64,000 nt of DNA from Lacipirellulaceae bacterium (GTDB lineage: Bacteria > Planctomycetota > Planctomycetia > Pirellulales > Lacipirellulaceae). Below are positions 33,213 through 35,343 of the stretch, piece after piece (position 1 is the stretch's first letter; every line of letters begins with the position of its first letter). The translations under genes and the position numbers were made by a program. The notes beneath the pieces are model-generated. The model saw only the letters and a program-made list of their open reading frames with translations, made no database searches and was not told where the DNA came from. Where the stretch lies: assembly GCA_040218535.1 (NCBI GenBank), contig JAVJRG010000006.1, positions 1 to 64,000 of the forward strand. Reading direction: 5' to 3'.

Positions 33213-33402
33213 CTTGCGCTACCCTTTTTTGACCGGCCGCTTGCCGGCTTAGCCATGGATGAAGAAATTCGGTCGCGAATGAAGAAATCACTTCTTCAGC
33301 AAAACAACTGAGCCTGCTTAAGGTCCAAATTTGCCCATCGCACTATGATCTGATAAGCTCTGCTTTATTGGAGAAGCTACAACTCGGAAATTCAATCGAC
33401 CC

Positions 33403-33415
33403 AGGAGCGCTAATG
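33403..33415 (+). promoter_or_regulatory. RBS and ATG upstream of the pentanucleotide repeat
   Basis: AGGAG (33403-33407) lies 5 nt before ATG (33413-33415), the best start signal in the region. The reading frame it opens passes straight into the TCCAG repeat. Confidence 0.7.
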
Positions 33416-33475
33416 TCCAGTCCAGTCCAGTCCAGTCCAGTCCAGTACGTAAGCTACGTGCTCTGGTTGCTGTAG
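33413..33475 (+). other. Short out-of-phase leader reading frame
   Basis: From ATG 33413, six TCCAG units are read as MSSPVQSSPVQ, and the frame then ends at TAG 33473-33475 after 20 codons. With one repeat unit fewer, the same ATG would instead read RKLRALVAVACLSALVLG, an ideal signal peptide, and run on into the 34644 stop. Confidence 0.7.
33416..33445 (+). repeat. (TCCAG)6 pentanucleotide tandem repeat, probable phase-variation switch
   Basis: Six uninterrupted TCCAG copies at 33416-33445 lie between a start codon and the main reading frame. Because 5 is not divisible by 3, gain or loss of a unit changes the frame: 5 or 8 copies would join the ATG to the gene; 6 copies do not. A tract of this kind can vary by slipped-strand mispairing. 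Confidence 0.85.
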
Positions 33476-33480
33476 CTTGT

Positions 33481-34644
33481 TTGTCGGCGCTGGTTTTAGG
33501 CTCAAGCAATGCCACAGGAGATGAATTCTCGGCGTCGATGGACCTGAACTTCGACTACACCACGTATCTCCACTCATTCGAGAATGCCGGGGTATTCGAT
33601 GACCCAGTCTCGATAGGAGTCAAGTACTGGATTCCAACGCAGCGAAATGTCGAAGGCGTCGTTACCTACCGCTTTCCGACTTCTCAGTTTGTCGACTCTG
33701 CCTACTTGTTCGGTGAGGTAGCAGCTTTCAATATTTTCGACTCGGGTGCACGAGCCTACCTGGATATTTCTGCGAATGGAATAGACTGGACGAATCTTGA
33801 TCTTGAAACCCAGCAAAGCTCGACCAGTTTCAATAGTTTTGCAAAGTACGATGGGGATATTACCCCGCACGTCCTTGGCAGCCAGGACATTTGGGTACGA
33901 GCCCGCTTGCTCTCTACACGCACGCATTCATCGGGACAGTCTTTCTATGCGCAGTTCATGCGGGCAGATCAAGATGGCAGCTTTGAACCGAAGCTGATCG
34001 TTCAAGCAGATACCTCCGACACCACTACAGGTTTCCCAACTCCTGGAAGCCCGCGGACGACATCATTTCTCGTCACGGAAAGCCTTACTACGAATAGTGC
34101 ATCCTCTGGAGGAGCTGAATATGACTTCGCTTCGATCACTGTCGATATCGATCCTGCGAATACCGAGTGGATTGCCTGGAATCAGGGCTCACCAGGTTTG
34201 GTTGAGAACGCGACTCGTCCCGGCGAGAAATTCTTCGGCCAACTCAACTACGGAACCGATGACTTCATCCGCATGACAATCACCGATCCGAATGGCGAAT
34301 CGCTGACGGTCGACATCGACCAAAACAACGCCGCAGGTACTTCCTTTGGTCCTCAAAATGTCCTGTTCGGTGAGGCTGAGTCCACTCCCGATGCTATGAG
34401 ATTCGCCAGACACTTCACAACGGATCCTATCTTCTTCGATGAAGCCGGGGCATTCAATTCGATCTTTACGATTGAGGGCGAATACAAATTTGACTTCTCC
34501 TTCCGCAATCAATTTTCATCAGCAGCCGGGCATACTGCACCGATTTATCTGATCGTAGCCGAGATTCCCGAGCCAAGTGCGATTCTCATACTGGGGATTG
34601 GTTGCTTCTCATTAATACGTGTGCGTTATCTTCCAACGGAGTGA
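33481..34644 (+). CDS. PEP-CTERM surface protein, probably phase-variable and in the OFF frame
   Basis: The frame shown begins at TTG 33481 inside what should be the signal peptide. In-frame codons upstream (to 33445) encode VRKLRALVAVACLS, the missing positive and hydrophobic part, but no start codon exists in that frame. The only good start (AGGAG-ATG 33413) is separated from it by the (TCCAG)6 tract and is out of frame. The body is about 370 residues of beta-rich, Ser/Thr/Asp-rich sequence with no recognised enzyme motif. The tail is IPEPSAILILGIGC with a basic end. The whole gene would be 33413-34644. Expression from TTG 33481 would give a truncated signal peptide and poor export. Confidence 0.75.
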   Translation: MSALVLGSSNATGDEFSASMDLNFDYTTYLHSFENAGVFDDPVSIGVKYWIPTQRNVEGVVTYRFPTSQFVDSAYLFGEVAAFNIFDSGARAYLDISANGIDWTNLDLETQQSSTSFNSFAKYDGDITPHVLGSQDIWVRARLLSTRTHSSGQSFYAQFMRADQDGSFEPKLIVQADTSDTTTGFPTPGSPRTTSFLVTESLTTNSASSGGAEYDFASITVDIDPANTEWIAWNQGSPGLVENATRPGEKFFGQLNYGTDDFIRMTITDPNGESLTVDIDQNNAAGTSFGPQNVLFGEAESTPDAMRFARHFTTDPIFFDEAGAFNSIFTIEGEYKFDFSFRNQFSSAAGHTAPIYLIVAEIPEPSAILILGIGCFSLIRVRYLPTE

Positions 34645-34682
34645 AAAACGCGATAAGTGCTTTGGCTGCCCTTTCTGACAGC

Positions 34683-34711
34683 TTGACAGCACCAAGTCCT
34701 GATCCAATGAT
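34683..34711 (+). promoter_or_regulatory. Possible promoter of the antitoxin remnant
   Basis: TTGACA (34683-34688), a 17-bp spacer and AATGAT (34706-34711). The -35 is consensus, the -10 four of six. It lies immediately ahead of ATG 34718. Confidence 0.45.
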
Positions 34712-34717
34712 TGCAAC

Positions 34718-34876
34718 ATGCGAACCACCGTCACCCTAGACCCCGATGCCGAGCAACTCCTGCGTCAAGCAATGCAGCAGACCGGCGAAAGCTTCAAAGC
34801 GACGCTCTACCTAACACCAATAAGCCGGTCGGAACTGCCTTGGTCTACCAGGTGGATTTCAGTGTTGAAACCCTAG
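34718..34876 (+). pseudogene. Truncated type II antitoxin (VapB-like) remnant
   Basis: ATG 34718 opens MRTTVTLDPDAEQLLRQAMQ, followed by QTGESFKATL, the standard N-terminus of VapB/ribbon-helix-helix-type antitoxins. After about 30 codons (34807) the similarity stops; the frame continues with unrelated residues and stops at 34874-34876. The remaining half of the antitoxin and any toxin gene are missing. The point of loss coincides with the start of PEP-CTERM-like coding sequence in another frame, so a deletion or recombination joined two genes here. Confidence 0.7.
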
Positions 34877-35343
34877 CAGTCTTTCCTGGCGAGCTTGGCT
34901 TCGCCAATGTCGGCTTCAGCATCGCCACGGACAATCTTGATACCACGGATTCCGATTGGACTCCTTCGGCGGTAGCCGCGTTATTGCTGGAGACCAACCT
35001 CGACGCCGGAATTCCCGACGATCTGGAAGGGATCCTCGCCTCGATCACTGGCGGCTTGGACGACCCAAACGACATCCGCACTCAGATCGGACAGAACGGA
35101 CCAACCGTTATCGGCTCGATCCTCGTCGAATGGGATGGCGTAACGCCCGCTTCGCTTTCCACCGAGGACGTCTTGTTCTCCGCAAACTCCGCCAGCGGCA
35201 TGTTCCTGGCTGCCCAAAGTGGTGGTTCAAGCTTGCTTCAGTTTGGCAATGTCCCTGAGCCGGCAACCTTGGTGCTTTTAGTGGCAGGCGCCTCAATTTT
35301 CTTCGCCAATCGACGTCGGATTGAGTACATTAAGCAACATTGA
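34808..35343 (+). pseudogene. Headless PEP-CTERM protein fragment fused to the antitoxin remnant
   Basis: From about 34815 the frame encodes VYQVDFSVETLAVFPGELGF and continues to a proper PEP-CTERM end, VPEPATLVLLVAG with FANRRR, followed by a stop at 35343. No signal peptide or start with a ribosome-binding site precedes it; the apparent start at 34711 reads through antitoxin DNA in the wrong frame and gives a nonsense N-terminus. A former exported protein of about 170 or more residues has lost its 5' end. It may still be translated at a low level but could not be exported. Confidence 0.65.

Follow-up and report, generated by a model that had tools for sequence, protein, structure and literature searches.

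A (TCCAG)6 tract separating an ATG from a signal peptide: a possible slippage-prone frame switch in a planctomycete PEP-CTERM-like protein gene

Contingency loci controlled by simple sequence repeats (SSRs) have been described mostly in host-adapted bacteria. In the opa genes of Neisseria, pentamer (CTCTT) repeats lie just after the start codon, within the leader of a surface protein, and a change in the number of units shifts the reading frame (PMC3745409). The opa tracts vary at approximately 1e-3 per cell per generation and are carried by approximately 11 paralogues. PEP-CTERM proteins, which are sorted by exosortase, carry signal peptides in 97% of cases (PMC1569441). Here, we describe a locus that combines elements of both systems. 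It lies in the window, the 64,000-nucleotide stretch of planctomycete DNA that was analyzed, where an ATG runs directly into six TCCAG units. The features of the gene are as follows.

33403-33407, + strand: Shine-Dalgarno-like AGGAG, 5 nt upstream of the ATG (sequence)
33413-33415, + strand: ATG start codon of the tract frame (sequence and translation)
33416-33445, + strand: (TCCAG)6 tract, read in the ATG frame as SSPVQSSPVQ
33448-33513, + strand: signal-peptide codons of the main frame, RKLRALVAVACLSALVLGSSNA, without a start of their own (translation; alignment to the homologue L116)
33473-33475, + strand: TAG closing the ATG frame at six copies, leaving a 20-aa peptide (translation)
33481-34644, + strand: PEP-CTERM-like protein frame as given by ORF finders, TTG start, 387 codons
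33559-34011, + strand: N-terminal domain, residues about 27-177, common to proteins across the order
34564-34641, + strand: PEP-CTERM-like sorting tail, comprising PEP, a hydrophobic stretch and a basic end (profile scores)

The sequence spanning the tract reads AGGAGCGCTAATG...GTACGTAAGCTACG, and TRF called the repeat at 33415-33446 with a 100% match. At six units, the 387-codon PEP-CTERM frame is a different frame from that of ATG 33413. The main frame is open in translation from 33349 to 34644, and the only ATG, GTG or TTG that it contains before the protein body is TTG 33481; the other conceivable in-frame start codons are CTG 33463 and ATT 33367. With 2, 5, 8 or 11 TCCAG units, the ATG, the signal peptide and the protein fall into a single frame, the product of which consists of MSSPVQ... 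repeats, then RKLRALVAVACLSALVLGSSNATG, then the complete protein, with a total length of 408 aa at 5 units and 413 aa at 8 units. With 3, 4, 6, 7 or 9 units, the ATG frame terminates within 25 codons. The positions that an earlier note had assigned to the AGGAG-ATG, the (TCCAG)6 tract and the stop codon were all exact according to sequence, TRF and translation. The translations also bore out its description of a separate main frame whose signal-peptide codons lack their own start, as well as its proposal that 5 or 8 copies are in frame and 6 are out, to which 2 and 11 copies can be added. A slippage-capable ON/OFF start is well supported as an architecture.

We tentatively interpret this arrangement as a slippage-prone frame switch with which a gene for an exported PEP-CTERM protein begins, a reading to which we give slightly less than even confidence. 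A ribosome would bind AGGAG, initiate at ATG 33413 and translate the TCCAG units. With 2, 5, 8 or further suitable numbers of units, reading would proceed across the signal-peptide codons and enter the protein, and the joined protein would be exported and then sorted by exosortase. With six units, as assembled, translation would stop after 20 codons and no exported protein would be produced. Slipped-strand mispairing would add or remove units and make the ON/OFF change reversible, similar to that of the CTCTT tract in Neisseria opa. The lack of a usable start in the main frame and the position of the signal-peptide codons, which adjoin the tract, are evidence for a switch, as is the 387-codon protein frame, which is still intact and shows coding bias. 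Six units, however, are short, which weakens the case. The anatomy of the start, its frame logic and the exceptional character of the tract are demonstrated; the use of ATG 33413, for which support is good, slippage at a useful rate and a selected benefit are steps that we infer.

The codon-usage score of the protein frame was +68.6 bits in total and was positive over most of its length. The N-terminal domain (approximately 150 residues) is approximately 30-38% identical to proteins across the order, among them the C-terminal parts of Ser/Thr-kinase-like proteins and one small PEP-CTERM protein (loci L116-L134). No Pfam family was found for this domain, and its profile matched only a carbohydrate-binding protein, faintly (E = 0.004). 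Single-sequence structure prediction gave a mean pLDDT of 33. The 3' end of the gene encodes a PEP-CTERM-like sequence, EIPEPSAILILGIGCFSLIRVRYLPTE. This tail scored 13.8 bits against TIGR02595 (cut-off 16) and 12.9 against PF07589 (cut-off 20.7). The identification of the protein as PEP-CTERM in the earlier note agrees with the pattern of the tail, but the scores fall just short of the curated cut-offs. The genome contains at least 148 PEP-CTERM matches above cut-off and one exosortase (PF09721, E = 2.7e-51, C12:1443302-1444069). Further, a DUF1559 protein and the PEP-CTERM matches constitute a gene content consistent with a planctomycete host.

The signal-peptide codons align with the signal-peptide region of L116, a homologous PEP-CTERM protein whose own start and signal peptide occupy the equivalent position ahead of the shared domain, in agreement with ATG 33413 as the real start. 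When signal peptides were called using a simple n-h-c rule, one was present in the protein frame only when the frames were joined (2, 5 or 8 units); at six units, it was without a start. In the 46% of the genome that was sampled, 99 of 104 PEP-CTERM-like ORFs possessed, by a simple rule, a start and a signal peptide. Because of this frequency and the 97% reported for PEP-CTERM proteins, a signal peptide without a start is abnormal, and its position points to the tract as the cause. The five exceptions were the tract ORF, its neighbor, L039, L201 and L170. We discounted L039 and L201 as PEP-CTERM genes lacking a signal peptide, as they look like false positives. L170, a 674-codon open frame on the minus strand, is a real PEP-CTERM candidate in which the start and signal peptide are unclear, and it is possibly another truncated or frame-shifted gene. 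As a separate observation, near-identical signal-peptide starts (MRIIPASLLVFCFISD...) are present in three genes (L197:17113-19455, L198:5754-7288; contig C12), and T10 and T11 runs lie just outside two of the three.

The high proportion of intact ORFs also bears on the accuracy of the unit count. Some long-read assemblies are known to be unreliable in the number of repeat units, and if the true copy number were 5 (or 8), the gene would be an ordinary one. However, any ordinary short read spans the 30-bp tract, and frame errors are uncommon in this assembly, given that 99/104 PEP-CTERM-like ORFs are intact. We consider an assembly or consensus error decidedly improbable.

The protein might instead be produced at six units by another route, namely from a rare start (ATT 33367 or CTG 33463), by restart at TTG 33481 or by frameshifting. 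All three codons are in frame, and TTG 33481 lies just past the TAG that closes the short ATG frame. However, initiation at TTG 33481 would not yield a functional signal peptide, and initiation at CTG 33463 would remove the basic n-region. ATT 33367 would add a long extra stretch before the signal peptide, and this stretch scored as non-coding. Frameshifting is disfavored by the lack of a slippery heptamer at the junction (by eye) and of a significant RNA fold; the fold of the start region was no better than that of shuffled sequences (z = 0.37), and we rejected a structural attenuator on the same grounds. Production by one of these routes is improbable. Codon-usage scoring favored the protein frame from the end of the signal peptide onward and indicated that the frame upstream of the tract is non-coding; the signal-peptide stretch itself was too short to be informative. 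A consensus scan upstream of the ATG detected no sigma-70-like promoter, which counts against the frame switch.

The tract and its start site are both rare, which speaks for the frame switch. In a 2.46-Mb sample, taken in stretches and covering 46% of the genome, there were six perfect pentamer runs of at least 3 copies, five of them with 3 copies and one with 6. The tract is thus the sole pentamer run of more than 3 copies in this sample, in which a perfect 32-bp period-5 run is expected by chance approximately 2e-10 times, given the base composition. TCCAGx4 occurs once in the whole genome, and 396 further genomes of the order lack it. AGGAG-N4-8-ATG sites account for 0.4% of the ATGs in the sampled genome, with approximately 0.002 expected per random 40-nt stretch. 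With six units, the tract lies above the SSR cut-off for pentamers, which is at least 5 copies (PMC5953494).

Other coding SSR switches were not found in the sampled 46% of the genome. Two tandem AGTGGGC heptamer tracts on contig C12 (L065:1372-1423 and L068:7103-7147; 7.4 and 6.4 copies) were ruled out as coding switches because they lie outside likely genes. Shorter related GGCAGTG/GGCAGTA arrays are present at L167:10054-10080 and L170:3065-3091, and all of these arrays apparently belong to a dispersed short-repeat family of the genome. A GAACCT repeat was also ruled out, because it encodes an in-frame PEPEPE stretch. It lies in L048:9106-9786 (contig C5), which encodes a pilus-assembly-like N-terminus and a long PEPEPE repeat at its end; the perfect GAACCT run there has 5.3 copies, and changes in its length maintain the frame.

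The n-region of the signal peptide hints at the history of the tract. In this genome, the median length of the n-region preceding the hydrophobic core is 5 residues, and the 95th percentile is 13. In the tract gene, it would comprise 9 residues at two units, 14 at five and 19 at eight. The two-unit length fits this distribution and the five-unit length already exceeds the 95th percentile, which suggests that the tract derives from a two-unit ancestor and expanded later, rather than being a tuned switch.

The genomic context was defined by comparison with a congener (G001). The tract gene sits 3' of the 23S-5S rRNA genes, within a segment that replaces 1118 bp of congener sequence. The features of the segment and its right flank are as follows.

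33255-34817, no strand assigned: strain-specific segment, 1563 bp (blastn breakpoints versus congener G001, L157)
34718-34807, + strand: first 30 codons of a VapB-like antitoxin, cut at the right edge of the segment (homology)
34711-35343, + strand: resident PEP-CTERM gene, headless and preserved only in its 3' part, from about 34818 (homology to G001)

The congener alignment stops at 33254 and restarts at 34818, and the GC content of the segment is 0.505 versus 0.553. Besides the tract gene, the segment carries at its right edge a promoter-like region and the start of the antitoxin gene. This vapB fragment is 69-90% identical to intact antitoxin-like proteins of relatives, of which four were examined in full (96-104 aa); in the relatives, a PIN-domain toxin gene comes next to the intact antitoxin gene, downstream of it and overlapping it. 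At the same site, the congener possesses an intact PEP-CTERM gene of approximately 485 codons (L157:14442-15899). Over 160 aa, the remnant at 34711-35343 matches the C-terminal part of the encoded protein with 79% identity, and it lacks a start and a signal peptide. Relative to the congener, the exchange removed the beginning and most of the length of the resident PEP-CTERM gene and left the 3' part. Lying in a strain-specific segment and flanked by remnants, the tract gene probably arrived recently.

Full-length relatives of the protein were found neither in the congener, the family (E <= 1e-3) or 397 genomes of the order nor among GTDB contigs, and 392 genomes of the phylum yielded only domain matches. 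A search of GTDB contigs for the flanks, allowing any number of units between them, detected no locus with another copy number. The known sample of the tract is thus one genome and one copy number.

These results raise the possibility of an accidental knock-out by slippage, in which an exchanged PEP-CTERM gene lost its frame as a short TCCAG repeat grew to six units. The gene would then be a young pseudogene in a decaying segment, and switching would not have been selected. This is a serious rival because the gene shares the exchanged segment with two broken genes, and we regard it as quite possible, at roughly one chance in three. The segment has no counterpart in the congener, and two broken genes, the vapB fragment and the headless resident gene, lie within it or result from it. 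Further, the gene is found in no relatives, and the sampled genome harbors no other coding SSR switch. On the other hand, the protein frame shows no decay: it has no internal stop, and it retains its coding bias and its tail. Both neighbors were broken by the exchange itself and not by drift, and a frameshift caused by a repeat stays revertible. A selected switch and an accidental knock-out would leave identical sequences, and only the variation of copy number within the population would tell them apart.

Under the reading that we prefer, a slippage-prone frame switch, an evolved contingency locus is a plausible interpretation. The earlier note had called the layout that of a classic contingency locus. 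The arrangement, which is that of a translational SSR switch, and the pentamer cut-off agree with this description, and the word classic is weakened by the presence of only six units, the lack of another coding SSR switch and the location in an exchanged segment with broken genes. The note also knew of no such locus described for PEP-CTERM proteins in planctomycetes; a title and abstract search of open-access text found no description of SSR phase variation for planctomycetes, Rhodopirellula or PEP-CTERM. The fullest version of the proposal, a working and reversible pentamer-slippage switch by which a free-living planctomycete controls a surface protein sorted by exosortase, its gene acquired by recombination beside an rRNA operon, is rather unlikely as a whole. 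If it is true, bet-hedging of the cell surface, perhaps in response to phages or grazers, may extend to free-living biofilm bacteria. As a caution, a PEP-CTERM gene that seems to lack its head need not be mis-annotated or dead; it may be a phase variant that is out of frame, and these cases can be told apart in raw reads.

Compared with known systems, the locus resembles Neisseria opa in its pentamer repeats placed just after the start and in the shift of frame with unit number. In contrast to the multiple, rapidly varying opa tracts, it is single, with six units in the sequence of one genome, and both the protein (PEP-CTERM/exosortase) and the host are unrelated. The joined frame resembles PEP-CTERM/exosortase proteins in its predicted signal peptide, its PEP-CTERM-like tail and the presence of an exosortase in the host; unlike them, its tail scores just under the cut-offs and a frame-shifting tract splits the start from the signal peptide. 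The small PEP-CTERM protein L116 (G145) shares the N-terminal domain at approximately 30-38% identity but starts normally and lacks both a pentamer tract and a second domain. The kinase-like proteins of the order carry the same N-terminal domain in another architecture.
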